Below, piece by piece: positions 9,375-44,625 of a DNA stretch of 44,995 bases. Positions within the stretch are counted from its first letter, which is position 1; each line of letters opens with the position of its first letter. A program made the translations under genes and the position numbers. Source of the DNA: a virus; the IMG/VR virus record IMGVR_UViG_3300033182_000902, positions 1 to 44,995 of that record; one strand, given 5' to 3'. Under the pieces are notes generated by a model. It was given only the letters and a program-made list of their open reading frames with translations, was not told the origin of the DNA and did not search any database.

Positions 9375-10721
9375 CTAATATAAACCGTCAGATATATCGT
9401 TCATCCAATCTTTTATTTCTCCTCTATCATATTCATCTCCTAGACCATACCAAGTTATACTTTCTGCTTCTCCATTAGGAACATAAAAATTTATCTCTTC
9501 ATTATCAACCATTATCAACTCTGAACCATTTTTATCAAGAATGGAAAATTCAAAATCAAAATATGATGAATCTTTATTGAGGACAGCATTTTGAATATCA
9601 ATAAATCCTTGGTCTGATGGTTGAATTACGGGTTCTTTATCTCCATGAACTTCGGTCAGAAATTTTTGTATAAGTCCTCGTAAAAATATGAAAAGTTTTG
9701 AACTTTCGTGTGCGGCACGTATTGCACCTTTCAAAAACTCATTTTGAGTGATTTCGGCACCTGGCATTTTTTCATTGGGTGATTTTTTATTAAAGTAAAT
9801 AAGTTCTTTCCCTACTTGTCCTTGTTCTTTATAACCTTTATTATAGAATGAACCCACCACTTTATATGCTCTCGGATTGAGTATCACCCCCTGCATCGGT
9901 TCTGACGGATGGATGATTCCCCTACCTGTTCTATCAGTTATGGCATCAACTCCAAGGTCAAGAAAAATCTTTGTCCAGACATTAGATGATTTTGTCGTAT
10001 TTCTTGACAACCGAATGTTAGTAAATCTGTTGGTCATATCACCAAAATTTGCCTTCATGTTAGGGTCTTTCATCATTGCAAAGACTTCATCTTTATACTC
10101 AGGTGTAGGTGCATCTGATGTGAAAAAATTACTGCCACTTGGTCTGAATCTTTGAATAGCAAAGAAGGTGTAGCGAGTCATGTTCCACCAGATACCGCCA
10201 GGACTCTTATCTCTGGCATCTTTTTGTGCAAGTTCTAATACTGCTTTGGCATATTCCCATCCAAAAGCTTCAGACATTTTTACTCCACTCTTTACATTTT
10301 TGATGATCATCTTTGCCAGTTTCATATAGTCACGATCATAATCCTTGCTGGATACTTTTGAGACATCAACAAAATTACTTCCTGATTTTGCCTGAAGTAG
10401 TGATACCATAGGCTCATCACCAGCAAATGGAACATCTAATTTTTGAGAGTTCTTATTGGCGTACAATTTCCATGCTTCTTTCAACGGATACACATAGACA
10501 CCGTTCGGTGTGTTGTATGTTGACCTCGGGTTGATTCCTACCTTGAATCCAGAGATATTTCTACCAGTGACCCCAGAGAAAGACTTACCCACATCAGCAG
10601 TATAAGTGATAAACATATCATCGCTGTCTTTGTATGGTTCCAGTGCCTTGTAAATAGAAATTTTGGGGTTGAGTTCTGGATTTCTTCTGGCTTCTTCTAG
10701 ATATTGTTTGAACGATTTCAT
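9375..10721 (-). CDS. Capsid-tagged internal protein, unknown function, 448 aa
   Basis: It starts MKSFKQYLEE followed by Ala, matching a T4 internal-protein targeting sequence with cleavage after Glu10. Residues 35-110 read as a beta-rich domain with KVGINPRSTYNTPNGVYVYP and PFAGDEPMV. A later part has DLGVDAITDRTGRGIIHPSEP, about residue 255. The C-terminal third is acidic. I do not recognise a named family. The pattern of short beta strands with conserved S-T-Y and G-V-Y is reminiscent of ADP-ribosyltransferase-like folds, but no R-S-E or H-Y-E triad can be assigned. It overlaps the upstream tagged gene by four bases (ATGA). Confidence 0.78.
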   Translation of the reverse strand: MKSFKQYLEEARRNPELNPKISIYKALEPYKDSDDMFITYTADVGKSFSGVTGRNISGFKVGINPRSTYNTPNGVYVYPLKEAWKLYANKNSQKLDVPFAGDEPMVSLLQAKSGSNFVDVSKVSSKDYDRDYMKLAKMIIKNVKSGVKMSEAFGWEYAKAVLELAQKDARDKSPGGIWWNMTRYTFFAIQRFRPSGSNFFTSDAPTPEYKDEVFAMMKDPNMKANFGDMTNRFTNIRLSRNTTKSSNVWTKIFLDLGVDAITDRTGRGIIHPSEPMQGVILNPRAYKVVGSFYNKGYKEQGQVGKELIYFNKKSPNEKMPGAEITQNEFLKGAIRAAHESSKLFIFLRGLIQKFLTEVHGDKEPVIQPSDQGFIDIQNAVLNKDSSYFDFEFSILDKNGSELIMVDNEEINFYVPNGEAESITWYGLGDEYDRGEIKDWMNDISDGLY

Positions 10722-11668
10722 TTATTATTCCTTGTAAGATTAGAGAGTTCATCCGCAACAACTCTACTGACATCCAGTTTTGTGGTTTCTATTACAGGTA
10801 TTTTGGTAGCTTTCGCTTGGTCTAATGTGGCAAAACCACCAGCTTCATTTGTGGTAACAATCAACTTGACAATCTTGAAGTTGGACAAAATAATCTCGTC
10901 ATAGTTTGCCCCTGAAAGAATCTGTGTTCGCTGAGACCCCGCCTGTTCCTTGACCCATTCCAGTAAAACATCATGAAGAATTTTCTTGTGTTTTTTCATG
11001 ATTGGAACAATACCCTCATAGAATGCCCGAATCATACGACTCTTGGCCATATTATCGTTGGTATTAATCCAATAGAGAACCACTTGTTTGAGATCACTCT
11101 GTTTATAAACACCTGCATCCACTGAAAACTCAAAATCTCCTTCAACAAACTCTTGAATGTCCTTGTTGGATTTCATCTCATTCTGGAAGATTTTATCCTT
11201 CAGGTCTTCAACTTGCTCTTCAAACCTCGTCAGATCCCCGCCAAGTCTTTTAGCTCTGAGCCACAAAAAACTGCCGTATCCAACATCAATGAATCTTGTT
11301 CCCTTCTTATCCACCACTGACATGAGATCAGTCGGTCCCCCTGTCATAGCATAACCTTTGAGGATTGCCACAATCCCTGCTCCTCCCCAGACACCCCCAG
11401 AGGTCAAGGAGCCAAATCCACTCTCTACGGTGAATGCTGAGATTTGTTTTCCTCGTTTGTTTTGAATCTTGATCAGGTTCTGAAGATTATTGACGCCAAG
11501 GACATGGGCTGCATACATGGGAACAGTTCCAATAGTTTTTTCTATCATACTCTGTTGCAATGGAATCATGCAACCCTCTCGCTCACGAACCTCTTTATAG
11601 AACAACTGGTAGAATGTTCCCTGAGTCCATTTGACTTCTTCTGATAAGTATTGTTTAAAAGATTTCAT
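10718..11668 (-). CDS. Capsid-tagged internal protein, paralogue of the 322-aa gene at 14081-15049
   Basis: MKSFKQYLSE forms the predicted targeting peptide. The body begins VKWTQGTFYQLFYKE and shares with the product of 14081-15049 the block MYAAHVLGxxN..L..IQNK, then K.ISAFT, GxWGGxGxVAI and LVDKKGTR or VVDKKGTR. A helical second half follows, ending in a short alpha/beta segment (NFKIVKLIVTTNE). No family is recognised. The H-V-L and I-S-A-F positions match H-I-T and I-S-A-F of the three neighbouring paralogues, so all five may share one fold. It starts one base before the stop of the adjacent gene at 11669. Confidence 0.78.
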   Translation of the reverse strand: MKSFKQYLSEEVKWTQGTFYQLFYKEVREREGCMIPLQQSMIEKTIGTVPMYAAHVLGVNNLQNLIKIQNKRGKQISAFTVESGFGSLTSGGVWGGAGIVAILKGYAMTGGPTDLMSVVDKKGTRFIDVGYGSFLWLRAKRLGGDLTRFEEQVEDLKDKIFQNEMKSNKDIQEFVEGDFEFSVDAGVYKQSDLKQVVLYWINTNDNMAKSRMIRAFYEGIVPIMKKHKKILHDVLLEWVKEQAGSQRTQILSGANYDEIILSNFKIVKLIVTTNEAGGFATLDQAKATKIPVIETTKLDVSRVVADELSNLTRNNK

Positions 11669-12475
11669 TTAATATAACCTTAAATCTGGATCTGATGATA
11701 CTTTTTGAACAATCTCTTCTTTGGAAATAAATTCACGAGGAATTTTATTTTTGACCGCAATTTGTATTGCTCTTTTAGGGTCAAAACTACCATCATTTAT
11801 AATATATGCCTTGATTATCTTGGGATAATCTATTACGACCTCATTGTACGAATCTGTGCTTTTTAAATCATCAGTAAACAAAGCACGAATCTCCTCGGCA
11901 TGTTTTGTTACATAGTTTTCGGTAGAATCCAAGTAAGTTTTGATGAACTTCTGCTTTTCCTTGCCATCCATGTCTTCGGGTTTTTTCAGAATGGTCATCA
12001 TTTTCAGTCTGGTGCCCAGAAAAGTTTTCAGGTTATTGAAAGTCTTTTTATTTTCTGGTCCAAGTTCCATGTAAATGTTGTCCCATACTCTATCTGCAAG
12101 CATAACTGTTCTGTACCCACTATCAGTTCTTGCTGTGAATGCATCAAACCCAAACTCAATCCCCTCCTTGCCTTTCAATTTTAAAAGCACTTGACCATCG
12201 GTTTCAACACCAGACAATAATGAGCCAAGTATATACCTAGTAGACACTCTATTGAATGCTGAGATTGAGTTTTTTTTACCTTGTCTCGTGACAAGACTTT
12301 CAAAACCAGATGTGCTGGTAATATGAAATGCTGTAGTCTCAGTTGAATCTGGAAAAATACGATTCCACATTGTACTTCGTACAACGAATGGAATTCTTTC
12401 CCAGTGTTTTAGAATTGAATCTGAGAACTTATGTACTGATTGCGCTTCGGCAATAAATTGATTGAATGTTTTCAT
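11669..12475 (-). CDS. Capsid-tagged internal protein, paralogue A of a tandem triplet
   Basis: The first ten residues are MKTFNQFIAE and are followed by Ala, giving the same FIAE|A cut site as T4 internal proteins. The 268-residue body has TAFHITSTSGFESLV, QGKKNSISAF, QVLLKLKGKEGIEFGFDA and TDSGYRTV, then a helical half with PEDMDGKEKQKFIK, and ends DPDLRLY. Paralogue B next to it is roughly 70 to 80 percent identical by eye. The conserved His, Ser-Ala-Phe and Tyr-Arg could form a catalytic pocket, and an ADP-ribosyltransferase-like fold is one possibility, unproven. Overlap with paralogue B is four bases. Confidence 0.8.
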   Translation of the reverse strand: MKTFNQFIAEAQSVHKFSDSILKHWERIPFVVRSTMWNRIFPDSTETTAFHITSTSGFESLVTRQGKKNSISAFNRVSTRYILGSLLSGVETDGQVLLKLKGKEGIEFGFDAFTARTDSGYRTVMLADRVWDNIYMELGPENKKTFNNLKTFLGTRLKMMTILKKPEDMDGKEKQKFIKTYLDSTENYVTKHAEEIRALFTDDLKSTDSYNEVVIDYPKIIKAYIINDGSFDPKRAIQIAVKNKIPREFISKEEIVQKVSSDPDLRLY

Positions 12476-13278
12476 TTTATCCTTAAATCTGTGTCCGATG
12501 ATACTTTTTGAACAATTTCTTCTGGGGAAATAAATTCGTGGGGAATTTTATTATCCACTGCGATTTGAGTTGCCCTTTTTGGGTCAAAGTAACCATCGTC
12601 TATGATGTATGTCTTGACGATCTGTGGATATTCCATCACGACCTCATTATACGAATATTTGTCTTTCAAGTCATCAGTAAACAAAGCACGAATAGCATCG
12701 GCATTTTGTTTTACAAATGATTCTGTGGCATCCAAATAGTCCTTGATGAACTTTTGCTTTTCTTTACCATCCATATCTTCTGGTTTTTTCAAGATGGTCA
12801 TCATTTTCAACTGGTTACCCAGAAAAGTTTTCAGGGCCTTGAAAGTCTTTTTATTTTTTGGTCCAAGTTGCCTGTAAATGTTGTACCAAATTTCATCTGC
12901 AAGCATAACTGTTCTGTACCCACTGTCAGTTCTTGCAGTGTAAGCATCAAACCCAAACTCAACTGCATGTTTACCTTTCAATTTTAAAAGCACTTCACCA
13001 TGAGTTTCAATACCACTCAATAATGTTTTAAGCACGTGTTTGGTAGACACTCTATTGAAGGTAGAGACTGAATTCTTTTTACCTTGTCTTTTCACAAGGT
13101 TTTCAAATCCAAATGTGCTGGTAATATGAAATGCTGTAGTTTCTACTGAATCTGGAAAAATACGATTCCACATTGTGCTTCTAATGACGAATGGAAGTCT
13201 TTCCCAGTGTTTTAGTATTGTATCCGAGAATTTCTGGACTTCCTGTTCTTCAGTGATGAATTGGTTGAAAGTTTTCAT
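12472..13278 (-). CDS. Capsid-tagged internal protein, paralogue B of a tandem triplet
   Basis: MKTFNQFITE precedes Glu. The body repeats every landmark of paralogue A: FRIWNR-like segment MWNRIFPDS, TAFHITSTFGFENLV, QGKKNSVSTF, TDSGYRTVMLADE and PEDMDGKEKQKFIK, and ends DTDLRIK. Same length as A (268 residues), so the pair arose by a recent duplication. The stop overlaps the start of A by four bases. Differences concentrate in surface-like positions of the C-terminal half, as expected for diversifying copies. Function unknown; delivery into the host with the genome is inferred from the tag. Confidence 0.8.
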   Translation of the reverse strand: MKTFNQFITEEQEVQKFSDTILKHWERLPFVIRSTMWNRIFPDSVETTAFHITSTFGFENLVKRQGKKNSVSTFNRVSTKHVLKTLLSGIETHGEVLLKLKGKHAVEFGFDAYTARTDSGYRTVMLADEIWYNIYRQLGPKNKKTFKALKTFLGNQLKMMTILKKPEDMDGKEKQKFIKDYLDATESFVKQNADAIRALFTDDLKDKYSYNEVVMEYPQIVKTYIIDDGYFDPKRATQIAVDNKIPHEFISPEEIVQKVSSDTDLRIK

Positions 13279-14084
13279 TTTATCCTTAAATCTGGATCTC
13301 TTTTCAGAAGATTAATTAAGTCGTTTTCATGTATTAGTTGGTAAGGAATGTTATTCTTTTTCGCTAAATTGGCGGCCCCTTCCCAGTCATAATTCGCAAA
13401 ACTATCATTCATAATATATGCCTTGACAATCTTAGCATACTCTAACACAATCTCATTGTAAGTGTTGTATTCCATTTCGTTTGAAAACATAGCACGAATG
13501 GCATCAGCATTTCGTTTTACAAATGATTCTGTGGCATCCAAATAATCTTTGATGAACTTTTGCTTTTCTCTACCATCCATGTCTTCAGGATTTTTGACTC
13601 TAACCATTCTCATGAGCGTGGTGTTTAGATGTGTCCTCAAGAGGTTAAATGTCTTTTGATTTTCTGGTGAGAGCATATACCTAAAATCATCCCACTCATC
13701 ATCATTCAATAACACTGTTCTATACCCACTATCAGTCCTTGCAGTGTAAGCATCAAATCCAAACTCACCCGCAGATTTACCTTTCAACTTGAGTAAAACT
13801 TGTCCTTCAGTCTCTATGCCCTGCAACATTTGCCATAAATCACCACCATTATAAATCTTATTGAATGTTGAAATTGCATTTTTTCTTCCCTGTCTCTTTG
13901 CAAGATTTTCAAACCCAGCCTTATCAGTGATATGGAATGCAATTGTTTCTGTGCCGTCGGGCATAATTCTATCCCAAATATTGCTCCTAAGAACAAAAGG
14001 GAGTTTTTTCCAACGATATAGTATCGTATCCGAGAACTTTTGAACTGCCTGTGCTTCGGTAATGTATTGAATGAAAGTTTTCAT
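13275..14084 (-). CDS. Capsid-tagged internal protein, paralogue C of a tandem triplet
   Basis: MKTFIQYITE is followed by Ala. This 269-residue copy is more distant, around half identical to A and B by eye, but keeps AFHITDKAGFENLAKRQG, NAISTF, QVLLKLKGKSAGEFGFDAYT, TDSGYRTV and PEDMDGREKQKFIKDYLDAT. Conservation is strongest in the N-terminal 130 residues and in the MDGxEKQKF helix, which therefore probably hold the functional site. It is the first of the three in transcription order and overlaps the 322-residue tagged gene by four bases. Confidence 0.8.
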   Translation of the reverse strand: MKTFIQYITEAQAVQKFSDTILYRWKKLPFVLRSNIWDRIMPDGTETIAFHITDKAGFENLAKRQGRKNAISTFNKIYNGGDLWQMLQGIETEGQVLLKLKGKSAGEFGFDAYTARTDSGYRTVLLNDDEWDDFRYMLSPENQKTFNLLRTHLNTTLMRMVRVKNPEDMDGREKQKFIKDYLDATESFVKRNADAIRAMFSNEMEYNTYNEIVLEYAKIVKAYIMNDSFANYDWEGAANLAKKNNIPYQLIHENDLINLLKRDPDLRIK

Positions 14085-15049
14085 TGCTTTCCTAGTTTAG
14101 CTAATTCGGTTGAGATGTCGAATTTGATTCCATTGAAGGTAGTTTCCACGACAGGCAATCTAAATTTCTCTTTGAGTCTTTCTGCTACAAGTTTTCCATC
14201 AAGACCCCCAGGCAATTCTTTATCTGTAATCACGAGGAATTTCACCACTTTGAAATTCGACATTATGATTTCGTCATATGCTGATGGAGTCGAGCTTTTA
14301 TTTCCAAGAGACATCTGTTGAGCGTACTGTGCCAAGATGAAATGCATTGCTTCTTTGTATTTCATCACGATAGGCTCAAACCCATCATAAAATGCTTTGA
14401 TCATTCTGTATTTTGCTTTAGCATCATACTCGTCTATCCAGAACAACCCATCAAGATATGACCTGACAACCCCTTCGCCTTCGACATACGTTTTCAAAGC
14501 AGGATTGGTTTTCAGTTCATTCCTGAAAATTTTCTCTTTCAACTCGTAGATTTTATCAGCAAGAGTATTGAGGTCTCTTTTGAATTTATCAAAATCGCCA
14601 GCAGCATTTTTGACTCGTCTTTTAGCAAGGAGAGCAATGGTGCCACCTTCGGGGCTAATGTTGACGTATCTTGTTCCTTTTTTATCAACCAGAGACATAA
14701 TGTCTTGTTCGCCTCCAGCCAGAGCATTTCCTTTGATTATAGCAACAACACCAGAACCACCCCAAATGCCACTCGTTGAAATGCCTCCCACAGAATCAGT
14801 TTCGGACGTGAAAGCAGAAATAGCCTTTGATTTCTTATTTTGTATACTCATCAGCCTATCAACATTCTCATATCCAAGAACGTGTGCGGCATACATCTCA
14901 ACGGAGCCAACAGTTCGTTTGATCAACGCAGAGGAAAGAGGAATGAAGACATCGCCTTCATTTTCTTGTTGTTCTTTGATGAATATATTGAAAAATGAAC
15001 CTTCTGTCCATTTAGCTGCTTCATCGAGGTATTGCTTAAATGTTTTCAT
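14081..15049 (-). CDS. Capsid-tagged internal protein, paralogue of 10718-11668, 322 aa
   Basis: An upstream ATG at 15073 exists, but the ATG at 15049 is chosen because it starts exactly with the tag MKTFKQYLDE and overlaps the previous stop as ATGA. The body has KWTEGSFFNIF, MYAAHVLGYENVDRLMSIQN, KAISAFTSET, SGIWGGSGVVAI and LVDKKGTRYVN, all shared with the 316-residue product of 10718-11668. A helical region (residues 150-260) follows, then a short alpha/beta C-terminus. No family is recognised. These two genes flank the tandem triplet, so the block looks like a nested expansion of one ancestral internal protein. Confidence 0.78.
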   Translation of the reverse strand: MKTFKQYLDEAAKWTEGSFFNIFIKEQQENEGDVFIPLSSALIKRTVGSVEMYAAHVLGYENVDRLMSIQNKKSKAISAFTSETDSVGGISTSGIWGGSGVVAIIKGNALAGGEQDIMSLVDKKGTRYVNISPEGGTIALLAKRRVKNAAGDFDKFKRDLNTLADKIYELKEKIFRNELKTNPALKTYVEGEGVVRSYLDGLFWIDEYDAKAKYRMIKAFYDGFEPIVMKYKEAMHFILAQYAQQMSLGNKSSTPSAYDEIIMSNFKVVKFLVITDKELPGGLDGKLVAERLKEKFRLPVVETTFNGIKFDISTELAKLGKQ

Positions 15050-15366
15050 TTTTTTACATTCCCCGACCACCAAACATTTTTCAATTGTTTCAGCTTATCT
15101 GGGTGCATTTCCATATCATCAGAGTATTTCATACCCTGTACAACATCATCATGCCCATTATTTTTGAACTCAAGCACCAACCCATTAGCAAATGCAACTC
15201 GGTCAACGCCTATATGAACTAATGGATGCTGAACACTAAGAATATCATCAAGTGCTTTTGCTAACGACACAGAATCAATTTGCTTGTGTGCTTCCATATA
15301 ATCAAACAATTGTACTGGTCTTTTGAACACGATTGCTTCTGTTATGTATTGACTGAATGTTTTCAT
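15046..15366 (-). CDS. Small capsid-tagged internal protein, 106 aa
   Basis: MKTFSQYITE followed by Ala forms the predicted targeting and cleavage sequence. After cleavage a mature protein of about 96 residues would remain, the size class of T4 IPI. The mature part is unrecognised and contains DYMEAHKQIDSVSLAKALDD and a C-terminal WWSGNVKK. Start and stop are both in four-base overlaps with tagged neighbours, so translation is coupled along the operon. Confidence 0.75.
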   Translation of the reverse strand: MKTFSQYITEAIVFKRPVQLFDYMEAHKQIDSVSLAKALDDILSVQHPLVHIGVDRVAFANGLVLEFKNNGHDDVVQGMKYSDDMEMHPDKLKQLKNVWWSGNVKK

Positions 15367-30624: not shown

Positions 30625-31032
30625 TCACTCCTCTGTTCGTTTAGAGCCAATATTATACTTGGTGGTCAAATTCCATTCAGACTTTTCTTTGAAAGCAATG
30701 ATTTTGAGTTGGTTCAATGGGACCACAGGGTCTTGGGACTTTTCAGTCTCAACCAACTTGATTAGTCCCCACTCGGACAACAAATTAGCAATGGTGTTTC
30801 TTCGGGCAACATCATTCTCAGAGAAGTTAGTCGGTTTACCGTCAAGGGCAAACAACTCCTTGAAGTGAACGATATAATACTTACCTTGTTTGTGAAGAAT
30901 GTGACAAGACTGATAGAGTGTCTTGTCTTTACGGGAAGCAACCCCAATCCGAGTAAGGGTTTCACGAACCTTGAGAAAATCATCTGGATTCTCCAAGGTA
31001 CATTCAATCATTGTTTCAATGGATACAGTCAT
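30625..31032 (-). CDS. regA: RegA translational repressor
   Basis: Close to T4 RegA along its whole length: CTLENPDDFLKVRETLTRIG, DKTLYQSCHILHKQGKYYIV, HFKELF and a C-terminal EWNLTTKYNIGS. RegA binds ribosome sites of early mRNAs and represses their translation. The product is 135 residues, with seven more at the N-terminus than T4; GGAG seven bases before the ATG at 31032 supports this longer start, in a four-base overlap with gp62. Confidence 0.95.
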   Translation of the reverse strand: MTVSIETMIECTLENPDDFLKVRETLTRIGVASRKDKTLYQSCHILHKQGKYYIVHFKELFALDGKPTNFSENDVARRNTIANLLSEWGLIKLVETEKSQDPVVPLNQLKIIAFKEKSEWNLTTKYNIGSKRTEE

Positions 31033-31409
31033 TTTTCAACTCCGCCTGGATGTAGTTTTTCTCTAATGATGGCCAGTTGTTCATCACTGAGAATGTCTAG
31101 AGCATCCTTGGCTTTTTCATTACCGAATCCATAATACTCTCTAACTAAATCTAGGTCTTTTAGTTTCTCAGCTTTCAACCATTTGCCATATCTCTTCTTT
31201 TGTCTAACTGTATTTAGTAAATAGTCAAACTGAAGACGAGCATCCAGATAATGTTTCTGATTCATCTCATTGGCTTGGAAAATGGTATCCAGAAAAAACG
31301 AAAGACCACGATTTATGATAAAGGAAGAGTACTTCTTTTCGTCCTGTTCAGTTTGCAGTACATCTTCCTTGGTTTCATTGATTGCTTTGAGTATGTCAAA
31401 CGGACTCAT
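31029..31409 (-). CDS. gp62: Clamp loader small subunit, T4 gp62-like
   Basis: A 126-residue helical protein preceding regA. RQKKRYGKWLKAEKL (about 69-83) matches the KRYGKWxK signature of gp62, and the order gp62-regA is as in T4. T4 gp62 is larger (187), so this is a short form as in other marine relatives. It would join four gp44 subunits to load gp45. Its usual partner gene gp44 is 3.9 kb upstream, separated by the DNA modification cassette. Confidence 0.85.
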   Translation of the reverse strand: MSPFDILKAINETKEDVLQTEQDEKKYSSFIINRGLSFFLDTIFQANEMNQKHYLDARLQFDYLLNTVRQKKRYGKWLKAEKLKDLDLVREYYGFGNEKAKDALDILSDEQLAIIREKLHPGGVEK

Positions 31410-32269
31410 GAGAAGAACTCCGTTAATCCTACTGATTTAATTTCTTTTTCATTATTAAACTCCTTCATTATAACACGATCATGTTCTTTTGTCAAATATT
31501 TCTCAACAAGTTCTTCAGTGATTGTGATATGACCATATTTACCAATTGGCATACTATCTGGCCAATTTTTTGAAATCTCAACTAGTCTAGGATGTTTCAA
31601 TCCCTCTGCAATAGCTTTACAAGAACTTTGGTTCCCTACAAATAATTTAGAACCAGCAATATACTTTGCCACATCTAAAGCATTATCAATCTTAACATAG
31701 TGTGAAAATCCATACCTCTTAATAAACTCATCATATTCTTCTTTTAATCCAATAAATCCACAATCATGATATTTCAGTAAAGTGTAATCAAAATAATCTT
31801 CATTATATCTTGGTGAACGATTGATAATAACATCATGTACATGAACTGGATCTACTTTTAGCCATGCATGATCTTGTGACCATCCTTGTAAATCTCTGTG
31901 CTTGTCTAAATCAAAATGAATACCATCCATGTATTTAACATGCTCAGAATGAAGAGTGACACCAGAGAGTTTTAGAGGAAAATGGTGAGATCTGACTCCT
32001 GCACACATCATGTTCAACTTCACTAGATCTGGACCTAACATCAAACGGTAAAAGGCTTGATAAGATTCAAAGTTGACATCTACATCATCTGGACAATTTT
32101 TACTGTGAAGGACAGCACCAATATATGGTTGTGATTCAAGTAATGGTCTGAGATATTCAGCAGCGTGTTCTCTCTGAATGTGATATTCTTTGACTCCACC
32201 TCTACGATATATGGCAGGAAGACTATAGACTATATCACCAATTTTAGCGTTGTGAAATACTCTTTCCAT
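31406..32269 (-). CDS. GT9/heptosyltransferase-like glycosyltransferase (GT-B fold)
   Basis: GDIVYSLPAIYRRGG at 11-25 is the N-terminal signature of GT9-like enzymes, and VKIDNALDVAKYIAGSKLFVGNQSS with KAIAEGLKHPRLVEIS corresponds to the C-terminal nucleotide-sugar domain. These transfer sugars from nucleotide donors. Its place immediately after the TET-associated glycosyltransferase, and a 26-base overlap with it, suggest a second sugar addition in a DNA modification pathway; a surface-sugar role is the alternative. The gene is A+T-rich compared with the replication genes and overlaps gp62 by four bases. Confidence 0.8.
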   Translation of the reverse strand: MERVFHNAKIGDIVYSLPAIYRRGGVKEYHIQREHAAEYLRPLLESQPYIGAVLHSKNCPDDVDVNFESYQAFYRLMLGPDLVKLNMMCAGVRSHHFPLKLSGVTLHSEHVKYMDGIHFDLDKHRDLQGWSQDHAWLKVDPVHVHDVIINRSPRYNEDYFDYTLLKYHDCGFIGLKEEYDEFIKRYGFSHYVKIDNALDVAKYIAGSKLFVGNQSSCKAIAEGLKHPRLVEISKNWPDSMPIGKYGHITITEELVEKYLTKEHDRVIMKEFNNEKEIKSVGLTEFFS

Positions 32270-33140
32270 GTAAATCCTTATATAATCTTGAATAATTACA
32301 AATGAATTTTATCTCTTCAACATCACCCTGTATTCTCTTATTTTTAAAATCGTTCTTTTTTACTTTGACATATTTAGGCCAACGACTTTGTAATTTTTCA
32401 ATCATTTGATTGTTGAGCTCAATAGTTCTACCTGCTGCATTACAACCTTCATGACTATCATAAGTTAAAGGTTTAGTTGTGACACAAAATTCATTTGAAA
32501 CTCTGTTCCTATGTCCTAATTCTAGGAGTTGCATATTCACCCAAACATCTTCACATGTAGTTAAAGAGGTCCAATCTACTAAATCTCTTGGGAGTTTTTT
32601 ACCATTGTAAAATTGGGTGCCTACAACATTACTATTGTCTGTGAAATAATTTCTAGGAAGAGGTAAAGTGGCCATTCTCAATCCAGCCAAAGTTATCCCC
32701 TCATCAAACCAAGATTTGATTGTAGTGAACATATCATCAAAATCTTTTTCGTTCATGGGATAAAACTTCCACCAACCCAACTGATCCATCTCAGGATTCT
32801 TTTCCAGAAATGTATCTGGTTTTTTCATATTGACAACTTCATCATGCCTAGGATCTCCTTGCACATGAGTCCAAATGTCTCTGAATCTTCTTCTAAATCC
32901 TAGATCATCATCAAAGGTCACATAGTCAATATCACCTGCATGATAAGCAATCCATTCTCTAGTCTCTGCAACATTAGAAACTTGTTTGTCAATGATTGTT
33001 ATCGGTAAATCTCCATGTAACTCTGCTTCCTCTTCTCTGACTACTAATGTGGCGATTTCTTGATATTTCTCTGGAAGATTAAAAAATGTTTTCTGTTTAC
33101 CAACTCTTTTGTAAGTGGGTATGTATATTTTCTCAATCAC
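32244..33140 (-). CDS. TET-associated glycosyltransferase (GT-A fold), GTG start
   Basis: The 298-residue product has IYIPTYKRVGKQKTFFNLPE, ATLVVREEEAELHG and ETREWIAYHAGDIDYVTFDD with a DDD metal site at 77-79. This arrangement fits the TET-associated glycosyltransferase family, which in phages glycosylates 5-hydroxymethylpyrimidines in DNA. Start is GTG at 33140 with GAGGGG seven bases upstream, overlapping the TET stop by eight bases. It directly follows the dioxygenase that would make its acceptor. The sugar cannot be told from sequence. Confidence 0.82.
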   Translation of the reverse strand: MIEKIYIPTYKRVGKQKTFFNLPEKYQEIATLVVREEEAELHGDLPITIIDKQVSNVAETREWIAYHAGDIDYVTFDDDLGFRRRFRDIWTHVQGDPRHDEVVNMKKPDTFLEKNPEMDQLGWWKFYPMNEKDFDDMFTTIKSWFDEGITLAGLRMATLPLPRNYFTDNSNVVGTQFYNGKKLPRDLVDWTSLTTCEDVWVNMQLLELGHRNRVSNEFCVTTKPLTYDSHEGCNAAGRTIELNNQMIEKLQSRWPKYVKVKKNDFKNKRIQGDVEEIKFICNYSRLYKDLHGKSISQR

Positions 33141-34104
33141 TAAAAAACCCCTCTAGAGTGCTTTTATTGGCATGTTTACCAATCGGTTTCTCACTTTTAC
33201 CAAGTTGACCTATTGTTGCAACTCTCCTGTCACAATATGAGACACAAGACAATCTTGTACCCTCACCTTTGATTTCAGTCACACCATGTAAATCACCAGA
33301 ATTTGTTATGAGAACAGAATTATCATCCACGTTAATGGCAACCCTATATCTAGGTAATACAAAGAAAGCACCATTATAATCACCAACTCTGAAAACAGCC
33401 ATAGTAGTTTTACCTCCAAGGTCACCACTATCAATATGAGCAGACATCCTTTTTGTAATTCGTTCATTGTATTTGTTAGGACTGAATGTAGTATATATGC
33501 CGACTCTATGTTCTTCTTTTATGAAACTTTCACAGAATGATTTTTGTCTTTGCCAAGCTTCTGGTTGTCCTTCTCGGAAAGCAATCTCACACCCCTTACC
33601 GATTTCTTTTAGTACATCCCACTTGTCAGGATTATTTTTGGCCCAAACGGACAGACCAATCTTTCCTGTAAATCTTCCCTTTTTGAAACCAGCCATAATA
33701 GAATGGATCTCGTTGGCCTCAGCAATATCAGTCCAAGATCCATCTTTCTTTTTAAGATAGTAAGAGTTTGGAGTCCTGAGCTTGTAATCAACCCCCTCTT
33801 CCATCCCTTTGGCTTTCATCTCATCATGATCTATCGGTCCAGCAGCATTAGCCCTCATGGTAGAGGTTTCGTTTATGTCATTCAAAGTAACGACAAGGTG
33901 ATCTCTATTCTCATAAACATTTGGAATTACTGTGGCAATAGGAACTGGATCAAATGAAGAAGAAGGACTGAAGATGTTCACACCATTCTCATAATCTTTC
34001 GTATGAACAATCAAATCATATGCATCTTCAGTCAACCACTTCCCTTCCCATTCTTCATTTGTTTCTTTAAAATCTAATTCAACTGGGGCTTCTAAATTTT
34101 GCAT
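33133..34104 (-). CDS. TET/JBP-family 5-methylcytosine dioxygenase
   Basis: Residues 221-290 hold the TET/JBP core: His223 and Asp225 in SAHIDSGDLGG, then GAFFVLPRYRVAINVDDNSV, third ligand His273 in SGDLHGVTEI and 2-oxoglutarate-binding Arg284 in TRLSCVSY. The enzyme uses Fe(II), O2 and 2-oxoglutarate to oxidise 5-methylcytosine in DNA to 5-hydroxymethylcytosine. Metavirome-derived phage TETs working with a linked C5 methyltransferase are known. Length (323) and the intact H-x-D...H...R set argue for activity. It overlaps the methyltransferase by 13 bases and the glycosyltransferase by eight. Confidence 0.88.
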   Translation of the reverse strand: MQNLEAPVELDFKETNEEWEGKWLTEDAYDLIVHTKDYENGVNIFSPSSSFDPVPIATVIPNVYENRDHLVVTLNDINETSTMRANAAGPIDHDEMKAKGMEEGVDYKLRTPNSYYLKKKDGSWTDIAEANEIHSIMAGFKKGRFTGKIGLSVWAKNNPDKWDVLKEIGKGCEIAFREGQPEAWQRQKSFCESFIKEEHRVGIYTTFSPNKYNERITKRMSAHIDSGDLGGKTTMAVFRVGDYNGAFFVLPRYRVAINVDDNSVLITNSGDLHGVTEIKGEGTRLSCVSYCDRRVATIGQLGKSEKPIGKHANKSTLEGFFSD

Positions 34105-35243
34105 AATACCTTTTCATAAATTGAGTTAGCATTGTGCATCATGTGATAAGGAGCCACCATCAAACCAATTCTTCGGTACTTGTCATCCAGTTTTTCAGAC
34201 TCATGAAATTTGTAATCATCTGGTAAAGACATAATTCTCAGACACTCTTTGACAGTATATTGCCGATCTTCTTCTGGATGAATCAAACAGGACATACCTG
34301 TAGTCTGTCCTGTTTCTGTCAAAGTATTTGACGGAACCATCCACCCGATTCTACGAGTCTGAAAATATTTGTTATCTGGAACATATTGACCTAGTTCTTG
34401 ATAAGCAGCACCTTGTTTCACTGGCCAAGGATTATTGATATGATCCTTTGGTAACAAATGCATCCACTCATATTTAGGCCTCCTCTTCATGTCTTCTCTC
34501 AAAAACTCAGCGTCTCTCATGTTCTCTTCATCTTCTTGAAGATCTAGTATTGCATCTTTCAATGTAGGAACTGGACGGAGTTGTTCTGGAAAAAGACTTT
34601 GAACTGTCATAAAATTAATTCCAAGTTTGTCTGCAATATCATCTCTGATGCAAAAGAAAAATATTCTTTCCCTCTTTTGTGGAACACCATAATCAGCAGC
34701 ACTCATAACTTTGTGACCGACTGTATACCCAATACTTTCAAACCCTTTGACCATTTCATTGAAATAGTCTCTAGCATGATTCATTGTAAGACCTTTTACA
34801 TTTTCACATACTATGACTTTAGGTTTGAGTATCCCACCCATCTCTATAAAATCAAATGTCAAATCTTCAATGTTGGTCTGAACATGACCATAGACTTTTT
34901 TGGTTTGACCCCATCCAGCTCGTTTCTTACCTGCCATACTGAATGGTGGACATGGTGGAGATCCATCAAGAATATCTAACTCGCCCTCTTGTATTCCTAC
35001 TCGTTTCATCAACTCAGGAACATCAAGAGAACGAATATCTTGACAGATTGTTAGAGCATCTGGAAAGTTCATCTTATAAGTATCAACAGCGATTTTCTGA
35101 AACTCATTCATAGCAAGTAGGTGGCCTCCAGCGAGTTTGTAACCTATTGAAGAACCACCTCCCCCTGCAAATGTAGAAATGTAAGTAAATCTTTTACGTT
35201 CTGCTGAAGCATAAACATCAGCTAGTGTGTATGGCTGATACAT
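34092..35243 (-). CDS. dcm: DNA (cytosine-5) methyltransferase
   Basis: C5 methyltransferase motifs are in order: FAGGGGSSIGYK (I, SAM), DGSPPCPPFSMAG (IV, catalytic Cys98), CENVKG (VI, Glu147), QKRERIFFF (VIII, Q-x-R-x-R) and a C-terminal RRIGWMVPSNTLTETGQ-like target region. Start ATG at 35243 has AGGAGG five bases upstream; the TTG before it is rejected. It methylates cytosine in a sequence context that cannot be read off. No restriction enzyme is nearby, and a TET dioxygenase and glycosyltransferase follow, so its product is probably an intermediate, not an end mark. Reported phage partners act at GpC. Confidence 0.9.
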   Translation of the reverse strand: MYQPYTLADVYASAERKRFTYISTFAGGGGSSIGYKLAGGHLLAMNEFQKIAVDTYKMNFPDALTICQDIRSLDVPELMKRVGIQEGELDILDGSPPCPPFSMAGKKRAGWGQTKKVYGHVQTNIEDLTFDFIEMGGILKPKVIVCENVKGLTMNHARDYFNEMVKGFESIGYTVGHKVMSAADYGVPQKRERIFFFCIRDDIADKLGINFMTVQSLFPEQLRPVPTLKDAILDLQEDEENMRDAEFLREDMKRRPKYEWMHLLPKDHINNPWPVKQGAAYQELGQYVPDNKYFQTRRIGWMVPSNTLTETGQTTGMSCLIHPEEDRQYTVKECLRIMSLPDDYKFHESEKLDDKYRRIGLMVAPYHMMHNANSIYEKVLCKI

Positions 35244-35282: not shown

Positions 35283-36227
35283 TTACCTAAACTCACACTC
35301 AACCATAATTTCAGTCAGACAGGCAACAAGATTGATCTCTTGATCAGCCACAAAGGCTGACTTGTACTGATAGTCGGCAATGATCAAAACTGCTTGAGGA
35401 AGAGATTGGGGTTTCAAATGAGAACTCAGATTATCATACAGTTTACGATACATCCTTCCTGCATCCTGATCAATATTCTGATTAGTCCACTTACGAACTT
35501 CACTGAACTTTTTACCCTTCAAAGCAGAAACCAGTTCTTTTAGATTGATTTCAGAGATGTTGGAAAGAATACCTGAATCAATACAACCAGATGAGGAATA
35601 ACGTTGAACTTCATTGATCACTCTCCGAAAATCTGGAAAGTGTTTCATGATCATCTCAACCAAAACCTTTTGGTCATAATCCACACTCTCTTCAGTCAAG
35701 ATATACTGAAGTCGTTTCATCTGACGTTCTGCAATCTTTGGTTTCTCATTCGCAGGAATAGAGAAGTTGAAGACAGCACAACGAGAATGAATTGGGTCAA
35801 TAATTCTATTCGGATAGTTACACGTGAAAATGAACGAGACGTTGTTGCCAAACTTCTCAATGAATCCCCTCAGTGCAGGTTGTACTGAGTCAGGGTTCAT
35901 ATAATCGCCTTCGTCCATGATAATGGCCTTACGATTACCAGACATAGAAACAGAACTACAAAATTGATTCATTGTAGTTCTAACAGTGTCAATGTTCCTA
36001 CCTTCATCAGAGCCATTGACCATCAAATAATCAGTATTTGTTTCTATACATAATGCTTTAGCAGTAGTAGTTTTACCAGTGCCTGGACTACCTGCAAGAA
36101 TGAGGTTGGGAACCTTCCCTGCGTCAACATACTCAGAGAAGGTTTCCTCAAGGTCGGACGGTAAAATACAGTCCTTCACGGTCTGTGGCCGATACTTCTC
36201 AACCCACAGAAAATCATCACGATTCAT
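35283..36227 (-). CDS. gp44: Clamp loader large subunit, T4 gp44-like AAA+ ATPase
   Basis: WVEKYRPQTVKDCILP at the N-terminus, Walker A GSPGTGKT at 46-53, a Walker B IIMDEGDYM (about 108) and HSRCAVFNF with the SRC arginine finger identify gp44. It forms the gp44/62 complex that opens and loads the gp45 clamp with ATP. The start is set at the ATG at 36227, eight bases after AGGGG; a GTG and ATG further upstream overlap the gp45 stop. It is followed by a 39-base gap and then the modification cassette instead of gp62. Confidence 0.94.
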   Translation of the reverse strand: MNRDDFLWVEKYRPQTVKDCILPSDLEETFSEYVDAGKVPNLILAGSPGTGKTTTAKALCIETNTDYLMVNGSDEGRNIDTVRTTMNQFCSSVSMSGNRKAIIMDEGDYMNPDSVQPALRGFIEKFGNNVSFIFTCNYPNRIIDPIHSRCAVFNFSIPANEKPKIAERQMKRLQYILTEESVDYDQKVLVEMIMKHFPDFRRVINEVQRYSSSGCIDSGILSNISEINLKELVSALKGKKFSEVRKWTNQNIDQDAGRMYRKLYDNLSSHLKPQSLPQAVLIIADYQYKSAFVADQEINLVACLTEIMVECEFR

Positions 36228-36232
36228 TGTCA

Positions 36233-36889
36233 TCACCCCTCGTATTTGGAGTCAGATTCAGTAGCAATAAAATAGGTAAGAGTAGACTCTTTATGAGAAA
36301 ACTTAGAGATACCCTTGGAAGTGATCTCTACATCATAGGAGCCAGGAAAAAGTTTGAGGTTTTCAATCTTGAACACCATCTTGAACCGTTTATCGGTCTC
36401 ACCGATTTCAGTCTTGAAGGTGTCAGAAGAAGAATTGTTTACATCATCAGCTTCAAGATAGATTTTAGATCCATCTCCACTAAAACAAATATGTGGTAGA
36501 CCCAACATGGCAGCCGCCTTGATGGTTTGACTGAAGTCTGCCTTAGACATGGTAGCCTTGACTTCTGCGTCAGGGAAACTCAGTTCTTTCTCTGGAGGAA
36601 CAACGATCATGGCAGGGTCGGCAAACATATAATTCACCTTTCCCCCGATGTTCATCGTATTGTCTCCAATTTCCAGATCGGGCTGGTCAAAGAGCGAGAT
36701 TACACCAAGAAGTTTGTTCAGGTCATAGATTGCAAAGTCTTTAGGGAAAGACTCTGTGATGGTCACAGATGCAAGGATGTTCTTCTGAGGAGAAATAGTT
36801 GTGAGTTTCTGACCAGACTTGAACTGAATGTTTTGATTGATACCTGCAAAGTTTTTCAACAATGCAAGGGTTTGTTCGGATAGTTTCAT
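36233..36889 (-). CDS. gp45: Sliding clamp, T4 gp45-like
   Basis: The 218 residues match gp45 in MKLSEQTLALLKNFAGINQN, KSGQKLTTISPQKNILA, FAIYDLNKLLGVISLF and the C-terminal YFIATESDSKY. The trimeric ring tethers gp43 and in T4 also activates late transcription with gp33 and gp55. A sigma70-like promoter lies 34-61 bases upstream, so this gene heads the clamp operon. GGAG precedes the ATG. Confidence 0.95.
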   Translation of the reverse strand: MKLSEQTLALLKNFAGINQNIQFKSGQKLTTISPQKNILASVTITESFPKDFAIYDLNKLLGVISLFDQPDLEIGDNTMNIGGKVNYMFADPAMIVVPPEKELSFPDAEVKATMSKADFSQTIKAAAMLGLPHICFSGDGSKIYLEADDVNNSSSDTFKTEIGETDKRFKMVFKIENLKLFPGSYDVEITSKGISKFSHKESTLTYFIATESDSKYEG

Positions 36890-36922: not shown

Positions 36923-36950
36923 ATTATACCACAGATGATGTATCTGTCAA
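36923..36950 (-). promoter_or_regulatory. Sigma70-like promoter for the gp45 operon
   Basis: Minus strand TTGACA (36950-36945), 16 bases, TATAAT (36928-36923), ending 34 bases before gp45. Both boxes are perfect. It should drive gp45, gp44, the cytosine modification cassette, gp62 and regA together. Confidence 0.8.
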
Positions 36951-37909
36951 TCCTTCTTCTCTTTCTTCAACTTACGAGCCAGTTGTCTTCGTTCTGCACG
37001 AGACAATTGTTTACCAGCAGTCTCTTCTGCCATCTTCTCTTCAGCCTCAGTGACTTGATGAGGTCTAGAGGTGGTATCATAACCATGAGCAGCATAGTCA
37101 AGATTAGCAAGAGCACCCATTGTACCATTGAATACATAAGATCCAACATGACCAAGATTCATCCACGGGCACAACCATGTTTTGATGCCAATCTTCCGTG
37201 TGAACTGACAGAACATATAGTCCTCTGAAAGGTATCGGTCAGAACCACTGGACCCTTCACCTGCAAAAGCTTTGGAGTCAATCACTGTATCAAAGAACGA
37301 GTGAATGTACCGTGAACCATCAAAGTGTTCTGAGCGGTTATGGTCTGGTTTATAGGTGAACTGCGGATACGCATCTCGGAACTTCTCAAAAACTTCTCGC
37401 CGAATCATCATAAATCCAGTACCAATCTCAAGCACTTCCACGGGCTCTGTGATTTTGATTTCATTGGTTCCTGCCACAGGATTGAACACAAAGTCACCAG
37501 TGTACTGCTCTAATTCAGTAGGATTATTATCACTCAACCCCGCATCAACGGCATTCCTGACCTTTTCCCAAGCAATAGTTTTCTTGGGATATGGGGCTCC
37601 AATAATCTCTTTATCCAGAGCAGCCAGAGTCAGAACATCATTGGGATTGAAATGAATATCTGAGTCAATGAACATCAGGTGAGTGTATGGACTACGAAGG
37701 AATTCATCTACCAGATAGTTACGTGCACGTGTAATCAGAGATTCATTGAAGAGGTAGAAAAACCGTACATCCATTCCGTACTGAGTTGCAATAGTTGCAA
37801 GGTCAGCAGTAGATTTGGTGTACATTCCACTGCACATTCCACCGTACATTGGAGTTGCCACGAAAATCTTCTTCTTTCGCAACTCCTCAATTTTGATCTC
37901 AATCTCCAT
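36947..37909 (-). CDS. GT-A family glycosyltransferase, 320 aa
   Basis: VATPMYGGMCSGMYTKSTA, FFYLFNESLITRARNYLVDEF and THLMFIDSDIHFNP with the DxD-type metal motif (DSD, about residue 82) identify a GT-A glycosyltransferase of a type common in marine phages. WHETHER it acts on DNA, phage protein or host surface is not shown; the nearby 5hmC pathway makes DNA one candidate. The C-terminal tail (RAERRQLARKLKKEKKD) is strongly basic, which would suit nucleic acid contact. It follows the peroxiredoxin gene after one base and contains the -35 box of the gp45 promoter at its end. Confidence 0.8.
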   Translation of the reverse strand: MEIEIKIEELRKKKIFVATPMYGGMCSGMYTKSTADLATIATQYGMDVRFFYLFNESLITRARNYLVDEFLRSPYTHLMFIDSDIHFNPNDVLTLAALDKEIIGAPYPKKTIAWEKVRNAVDAGLSDNNPTELEQYTGDFVFNPVAGTNEIKITEPVEVLEIGTGFMMIRREVFEKFRDAYPQFTYKPDHNRSEHFDGSRYIHSFFDTVIDSKAFAGEGSSGSDRYLSEDYMFCQFTRKIGIKTWLCPWMNLGHVGSYVFNGTMGALANLDYAAHGYDTTSRPHQVTEAEEKMAEETAGKQLSRAERRQLARKLKKEKKD

Positions 37910-43007: not shown

Positions 43008-43083
43008 TGGAGCTGCTTATCAGATTTGAACTGATGACCTACACCCTACCAAGGTGTTGCTCTACCAACTGAGCTAAAGCAGC
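43008..43083 (-). tRNA. tRNA-Thr (anticodon GGT)
   Basis: The minus strand folds as a full cloverleaf: acceptor GCTGCTT/AAGCAGC, D arm GCTCAGTTGGTAGAGC, anticodon arm ACACC-TTGGTAG-GGTGT with GGT at 34-36, and T arm ATCAG-TTCAAAT-CTGAT. The 3' CCA is encoded at 43010-43008. It reads ACC and ACU codons. Confidence 0.92.
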
Positions 43084-43680: not shown

Positions 43681-44625
43681 TTATTTTACAGCAAGACGAA
43701 CTTTGGCAAGAGTTTTACTATCAAGAGGAACTAAGCCAGCATCACCAAGATAACCATACTCTCCAACTGCTGCTTCTGAAGTATACTCGTTCATGAACTC
43801 TTGAAAGCCAGGAACGATATTTCTATGTTCGCCTTTGGCATAAACATACAATGGACGACTGATGGGATATTCATAGGATTGAATGGTATCCAAAGAAATG
43901 GTAACTCCTTCAATCACTGCTCCTTGAATTCTATCTTGATTCTGGTCTAGGAAAGAGAATCCGAAAATACCAAATGCTTCTTTATCGGCAACAAGACGAT
44001 TCACAATGAGAGTGTCATTCTCGCCCGCCTCTTCAACAGCACCGTCTTCACGGAACAAAGCACAATGCTTTTTATTTGCTTTCTTGACTGCCTTATCACA
44101 ACCGTCAACCATCACCAACTCATTCCAAGCATCTCGTGTTCCAGAGGTTGGAGGTGGTGCGAGAATGACGATTTTCTGATGAGGAAACTTAGGATTGATT
44201 TCGTCCCAATAAGTTGGTTTTGGACCTTTCTCTGCCATTGCCATCCAAAGTTCATGTCTCGTGACCTCAAACTTTGGACCGTCAACACTGTTAGAGAAAG
44301 CGATTCCATCATTTCCAACTGGAATCTCAATAATGTCTTTGACACCATTTGAAGCACAAAGTTCTACCTCACTTTTCTTGATAGCACGAGAGGCATTGGT
44401 GAAATCTGGATGTTTCACACCAACCCCCGCGCAAAATAATTTCATCCCACCGCCTGTTCCTGTGGATTCAACGATAGGAGTAGGAAATCCTTGATTACCA
44501 AGTTTTTCTGCTACGATTGTAGTGAATGGATAAACCGTTGATGAACCAACGATTGTGATTTTGTCTCTTGCGAATGCTGCGGTAGCGATTAAACTTGCGG
44601 CAGCAATAGTAATAAGTTTTTTCAT
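43681..44625 (-). CDS. pstS: PstS phosphate-binding periplasmic protein
   Basis: A Sec signal peptide (MKKLITIAAASLIATAAFA) precedes a 295-residue substrate-binding protein. Phosphate-site motifs are visible: IVGSSTVYPF, ESTGTGGGMKLF, NASRAIKKSE and PTSGTRDAWNE. PstS captures phosphate for the host Pst ABC transporter. Phage copies are frequent in phosphate-poor seawater and are thought to keep phosphate uptake going during infection. It overlaps a small secreted-protein gene by four bases and ends at an intrinsic terminator. No Pho box could be identified upstream within the window. Confidence 0.94.
   Translation of the reverse strand: MKKLITIAAASLIATAAFARDKITIVGSSTVYPFTTIVAEKLGNQGFPTPIVESTGTGGGMKLFCAGVGVKHPDFTNASRAIKKSEVELCASNGVKDIIEIPVGNDGIAFSNSVDGPKFEVTRHELWMAMAEKGPKPTYWDEINPKFPHQKIVILAPPPTSGTRDAWNELVMVDGCDKAVKKANKKHCALFREDGAVEEAGENDTLIVNRLVADKEAFGIFGFSFLDQNQDRIQGAVIEGVTISLDTIQSYEYPISRPLYVYAKGEHRNIVPGFQEFMNEYTSEAAVGEYGYLGDAGLVPLDSKTLAKVRLAVK

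Follow-up and report, generated by a model that had tools for sequence, protein, structure and literature searches.

What might four genes predicted to modify DNA be doing between the two clamp-loader genes of a phage? We addressed this question in IMG/VR virus record IMGVR_UViG_3300033182_000902, a marine T4-like phage record of 44,995 bases (positions 1 to 44,995, hereafter the window), whose minus strand encodes in succession gp45, gp44, a DNA cytosine methyltransferase (MT), a TET/JBP dioxygenase (TET), a TET-associated glycosyltransferase (TAGT), a putative glycosyltransferase that we call GT9L, gp62, regA and dut. An earlier note on this DNA had read four open reading frames (ORFs) in the gp44-gp62 interval, at 31406-35243, as a cytosine hypermodification cassette; they are present there, with exact coordinates and real overlaps. 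Pfam models recognise gp62, regA, gp44 and gp45, and neighbours overlap by 4-26 nucleotides (nt) from gp45 to dut (MT/TET 13 nt, TET/TAGT 8 nt, TAGT/GT9L 26 nt, GT9L/gp62 4 nt), the sole exception being gp44/MT, where a 39 nt spacer separates the gp44 stop from the MT start. We consider it likely that these genes form a post-replicative cytosine hypermodification cassette, which would be expressed along with the replisome. MT would methylate cytosine at C5, probably in GpC, and TET would oxidise the 5-methylcytosine (5mC) to 5-hydroxymethylcytosine (5hmC). TAGT, predicted to be of the GT-A type, would place a first sugar on the hydroxymethyl group, and GT9L, predicted to be of the GT-B type, would have as its likeliest role the extension or diversification of TAGT's sugar. 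DNA modified in this way would be shielded from host nucleases, and the phage may plausibly gain protection against restriction or CRISPR.

The first three enzymes carry this explanation. The window MT (METHYLTRANSFERASE) matches the DNA_methylase family PF00145 and has motifs I, IV (PC), VI (ENV) and VIII (QxRxR), with the catalytic cysteine in GSPPC and the ENVKG and QKRER motifs also kept. Its listed ORF reaches TTG 35246; the most likely start is ATG 35243, with the Shine-Dalgarno sequence AAAGGAGG just 5' of it. For TET, the Tet_JBP model is matched by 30/30 aligned family members (best 1.9e-16), and an AlphaFold2 model (predicted local distance difference test, pLDDT, 88.2; predicted template modelling score, pTM, 0.84) gave TET/JBP-type DNA oxygenases as all of its first 24 PDB fold matches, 5mC-DNA complexes among them; the matches include CMD1, CcTET, NgTET1 and human TET2. 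H223, D225 and H273, which bind the iron, and R284, which binds 2-oxoglutarate, are invariant in 85/85 TET sequences, and the HxD motif, distal histidine, 2-oxoglutarate-binding arginine and double-stranded beta helix that define the TET/JBP group are all found. The earlier note had named loss of catalytic residues as the result that would speak against it; no such loss was seen in the TET ligands or the MT motifs. TAGT scores above the Pfam cut-off of PF20691, a family of TET-linked glycosyltransferases, and its DDD motif (residues 77-79) is invariant among nine aligned members. These domain matches, intact catalytic residues and fold matches bear out the enzyme identities and reaction order that had been proposed for MT, TET and TAGT, and we regard a pathway via 5hmC to glycosylated cytosine as likely.

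GT9L is the more distant case. Direct searches of Pfam, PHROGs, NCBIfam and the PDB returned no match, and PF01075, the GT9 model, matched neither the window protein nor its phage relatives. Cellular relatives (about 29% identical) occur in Mucilaginibacter and Fimbriimonadaceae, near GT2-type glycosyltransferases, and two cellular relatives reached PF01075 at only E 0.36 and 0.12. Across 198 genomes from the Mucilaginibacter phylum, a hidden Markov model (HMM) of the GT9L family found further relatives and reached one true GT9 protein (PF01075 5.2e-27) with a per-genome E of 1.6e-6, or about 3e-4 once the 198 genomes are allowed for. In hhalign comparisons with four E. coli GT9 enzymes, adding relatives raised the probability from 19% to 81% (P 1.2e-5), the alignments always centring on the C-terminal nucleotide-sugar motif. 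From these stepwise HMM and profile-profile matches, the likeliest identity for GT9L is a GT-B glycosyltransferase with a remote kinship to GT9, although not a member by Pfam's test. The label "GT9-like" given by the earlier note therefore stands as remote homology and falls as PF01075 membership.

The company that these genes keep in other viruses speaks for the cassette explanation. Our IMG/VR scan recovered 183 TET relatives and 80 of them were retrieved (loci are numbered with an L below), and MT was on the same locus in 88/92 distinct TET loci. In the phage collection, TET relatives occurred in only eight records. Among 26 viral contigs found with a GT9L query, 19 have TET within a few kb; in five of the other seven GT9L sits no more than about 1.3 kb from a contig end. 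The partners of GT9L vary and include TAGT, a GT8, a P-loop kinase and unknown ORFs, a linkage pattern consistent with interchangeable decorating enzymes around a constant MT-TET core.

Two further enzyme types were observed at these loci. A P-loop kinase with weak PF18751 and PF13238 matches recurs beside TET (L077:3895-4431, L078, L103, L105, L106 and L002:7557-8090) and, in two lineages, occupies the space from TET to gp62. Kinases that act on 5hmU in DNA suggest a comparable role for it, so its substrate could be 5hmC in DNA. The other type, FkbM methyltransferases, is found repeatedly within or beside the cassette (L005:1222-1851, L031:4579-5087, L034:7246-7920) and possibly O-methylates a DNA sugar.

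How would the two glycosyltransferases divide the work? We infer the identities of the sugars and the order in which the enzymes would act, and we put the chance that GT9L performs a second sugar step on DNA slightly below even. The varied partners of GT9L would also suit TAGT and GT9L being alternative first-sugar enzymes, or GT9L using another acceptor in the same DNA, with no disaccharide formed, and T4 offers a precedent in its two enzymes that glycosylate 5hmC in parallel. TAGT and GT9L are direct neighbours in the window, L003, L007 and L065, an arrangement that suits sequential and parallel action alike and is not decisive, and we regard this alternative as possible but somewhat doubtful. 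A different division would have a surface glycan of the host, or a virion protein, as the target of GT9L and perhaps of TAGT too, leaving only MT and TET to act on DNA and 5hmC as the product. LPS (lipopolysaccharide) cores are built by GT9 enzymes, cellular GT9L relatives adjoin GT2 or GT4 glycosyltransferases, and glycosyltransferases of marine pelagimyophages have been interpreted as O-chain modifiers (PMC7029224). However, the frequent presence of TET near GT9L, the overlap of the TAGT and GT9L genes inside the replication operon, away from the tail/host-recognition region, and a TAGT family name (PF20691) that itself refers to TET association make a role confined to surface glycans or virion proteins unlikely.

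The chemistry of the first step also had to be considered, because the nearest solved relative of MT in a PDB search is 8YF3 (E 8.5e-79, full length), and this structure belongs to CmoX from Synechococcus phage S-B43, which carboxymethylates cytosine at C5 and targets GC motifs (PMC12783734). Arg350 of CmoX touches the carboxylate of its cofactor, carboxy-S-adenosylmethionine (Cx-SAM) (PMC12783734). When 71 TET-linked MTs were aligned with three CmoX homologues, the Arg350 column was Leu in every MT (71/71; Leu362 in the window) and Arg in every CmoX homologue (3/3). Both groups share the catalytic Cys, Glu47 and Asp69, and Phe48 is kept except in one. The leucine leads us to read MT as an S-adenosylmethionine (SAM)-dependent 5mC methyltransferase, and plain 5mC is thus favoured over 5-carboxymethylcytosine. 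We therefore rejected a CmoX-type MT, whose 5-carboxymethylcytosine would leave TET and the transferases to use another handle, as very improbable: the full-length match to CmoX and the placement in S-CRM01 of a CmoX homologue with an adjoining methyltransferase-domain gene at a comparable site, between gp62 and regA, are outweighed by the loss of the carboxylate-binding arginine, by the lack of any CmoA or CmoY homologue adjoining MT and by a TET gene immediately downstream that suits a methyl substrate. By analogy with CmoX, and from what Burke et al. 2021 reportedly found, the specificity of MT is probably GpC.

Several observations count against the cassette explanation or parts of it. The window TET scores slightly under the Pfam gathering cut-off (33.2 bits vs 34.9, 1.7 bits short). 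GT9L has no direct family match, and its own structure prediction, from a 12-row alignment, is poor (pLDDT 49), with only residues 1-70 good and random Rossmann matches in the PDB. L034 and L130 show no TET although their contigs extend far enough around GT9L to have included it, and the neighbours of GT9L in L034 are a glycosyltransferase of the GT4 type and an FkbM methyltransferase, like a possible surface-glycan locus. GpC, considered as a possible imprint of GpC methylation, is scarcer in TET loci, at 0.80 against 0.95, but CpG is likewise depleted (0.49 vs 0.71); the signal is lineage-confounded, lends no support to GpC specificity and was not used.

The earlier note had also thought the position inside the clamp-loader unit unusual, and here the comparison went the other way. 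Although gp44 and gp62 are direct neighbours in many T4 relatives, they often are not in Kyanoviridae-like phages: the gap holds a DNA methyltransferase gene (Dam) in S-RIM2, PurS and a gene annotated mom in S-SCSM2R, and three ORFs in S-SRM01. Among 29 IMG/VR loci with both genes, 15 show at least 250 nt between their matches, and in five of these, all additional to the window, a complete MT-TET cassette lies in between. Given these cyanophage gap genes and further cassettes, the position is not unusual. Most other TET cassettes lie directly after the DNA polymerase gene. The clamp-loader placement occurs in three deep lineages of the TET tree (the window with L005; L078/L103; L077/L096/L085/L095) and would represent either repeated insertion, with three gains, or an ancestral site; the root of the tree is arbitrary and both readings stand. 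Two further loci (L115:3500-6122 and L116:3309-5146) bear on placement: the S-CRM01 gene pair puts a second type of cytosine-modifying cassette at the clamp loader as well, while the S-B43 CmoA-CmoY-CmoX genes are located elsewhere.

Expression of the cassette from a gp45 promoter, also proposed at the outset, holds in part. A perfect sigma70 match precedes gp45, but a second falls within the 3' end of the GT9L gene, at a distance of 58 nt from gp62 on its upstream side, and is kept in L003 and L004. These are the only two perfect matches in the window, where about 0.1 would be expected per shuffled window on both strands, and many relatives have similar perfect matches ahead of gp43 or MT. 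We infer from these consensus matches that gp62-regA has its own promoter, in which case gp62 need not rely on read-through from the cassette.

The sugar genes appear to have a history of their own. Between the window and L003, TAGT and GT9L are 97.5% and 94.5% identical (about 96% for the pair), whereas gp62, regA and dut are 72.0, 71.1 and 70.5% identical, with the drop located at the gp62 start. L003 and L004 in turn are 99.6% identical along 2.8 kb beginning exactly at the gp62 start codon, yet L004 has a GT9L end with 92% identity and an extra 362-residue ORF at the same junction. This ORF (L004:183-1271) sits exactly between GT9L and gp62 and had no relatives in the phage collection. Together these identity patterns make the GT9L/gp62 junction resemble a recombination boundary, and TAGT-GT9L looks to have been recently exchanged between related viruses; a chimeric assembly of L003 is a possible alternative. 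We tentatively suggest, as a combined proposal that we rate as rather less probable than its opposite, that GT9L represents a new DNA glycosyltransferase family, derived from GT9-like surface-glycan enzymes, and attaches a second sugar, perhaps of the heptose type, to 5hmC already glycosylated by TAGT, and that recombination at the gp62 start passes the TAGT-GT9L cassette among T4-like phages, each lineage changing the chemistry of its DNA coat.

Table 1. Features of the replication operon and its cassette in the window, with supporting evidence.
Feature	Coordinates	Strand	Evidence
Possible extra GT-A-like glycosyltransferase adjoining gp45	36947..37909	-	phrog_1574 5.7e-67, PF03452 Anp1 1.4e-4 (under cut-off)
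Predicted sigma70 promoter, TTGACA-16-TATAAT, extended -10, upstream of gp45	36923..36950	-	12/12 consensus match
gp45 sliding clamp	36233..36889	-	PF09116 2.3e-12, phrog_223 8e-72
gp44 clamp-loader large subunit	35283..36236	-	phrog_168 1.8e-121
MT, DNA cytosine C5-methyltransferase	34092..35243	-	PF00145 1.6e-56, motifs, Shine-Dalgarno AAAGGAGG
TET/JBP 2-oxoglutarate/Fe(II) dioxygenase	33133..34104	-	Tet_JBP 3.7e-8, invariant residues, AlphaFold2 model, PDB fold matches
TAGT, TET-associated glycosyltransferase	32244..33140	-	PF20691 3.5e-8, phrog_842 1.4e-22
GT9L, predicted GT-B glycosyltransferase, remote GT9 heptosyltransferase relative	31406..32269	-	hhalign, family HMM, TET linkage
Predicted sigma70 promoter, TTGACA-17-TATAAT, extended -10, GT9L 3' end	31467..31495	-	12/12 consensus match
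gp62 clamp-loader small subunit	31029..31409	-	PF16790 6.2e-15, phrog_225 1.3e-41
RegA translational repressor	30625..31032	-	PF01818 1.1e-46

Other genes of the window deserve brief mention. The protein encoded directly upstream of gp45 has a FIDSDI (DSD) motif, and L010 encodes a homologue (52% identity) that likewise precedes gp45; it is possibly an additional glycosyltransferase, its tie to the cassette being conjectural. A run of minus-strand proteins at 9375-15366, some of them paralogous and four without a PHROG match, start with MKxFxQYixEA, which we take to recall the capsid-targeting N-termini of T4, and these could be packaged internal proteins. The minus strand also encodes a PstS-like phosphate-binding protein (43681-44625; weak phrog_5385 match) and tRNA-Thr(GGT) (43008-43083).

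How does this locus compare with known systems? Burke et al. reportedly described phage TET clusters in viral metagenomes (PNAS, 2021; summarised in PMC12730594). The MT-TET-glycosyltransferase pathway is already known in phages, so the core finding is not new. The window differs from those clusters in its sugar half, which combines TAGT with a GT9-like family that lacks a Pfam model, and in the location of the cassette between gp44 and gp62 together with a predicted gp62 promoter. GT9L shares the N-terminal G-D and C-terminal nucleotide-sugar motifs of the GT9 heptosyltransferases WaaC, WaaF, WaaQ and WaaU but differs from them in having no direct PF01075 match, a middle region that cannot be aligned and a DNA-modification context. 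We found no paper linking heptosyltransferase, phage, glycosyltransferase and hydroxymethylcytosine in a search of a collection with only a minority of subscription papers. GT9L, as a recurrent partner that lacks a Pfam model, is a candidate new DNA glycosyltransferase, and some glycosyltransferases of marine T4-like phages that have been read as LPS modifiers may instead act on DNA. If host nucleases favour phages that alter their DNA coats, related phages would be expected to exchange sugar genes.

A cultured relative offers a second comparison. Melnitz (MZ577097, L002), a phage of OM43 grown on strain H5P1, has a previously unrecognised MT-TET pair, the adjacent proteins being 49% (MT) and 50% (TET) identical to those of the window. 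Its gene 6 (L002:5208-6194), annotated as hypothetical, is a TET/JBP dioxygenase by Pfam with complete catalytic residues, while in the Melnitz paper the only role discussed for gene 5, the methylase, is protection from restriction (PMC9004378). Unlike the window cassette, the pair sits after gp43, and neither TAGT nor GT9L was found in the complete Melnitz genome. The presence of TET in Melnitz makes polymer-level 5hmC testable in a cultured marine T4-like phage.

The CmoA-CmoX-CmoY system of S-B43 resembles the window in belonging to Kyanoviridae and in modifying cytosine C5 after replication and then decorating it, but it relies on Arg350 and carboxy-SAM, has no TET and ligates glycine instead of a sugar (PMC12783734). 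T4 resembles the window in having glycosylated 5hmC as the expected end state and the same order of replication genes. There, 5hmC arises at the nucleotide level via dCMP hydroxymethylase, whereas in the window it is predicted to be made on the polymer, by MT and TET.

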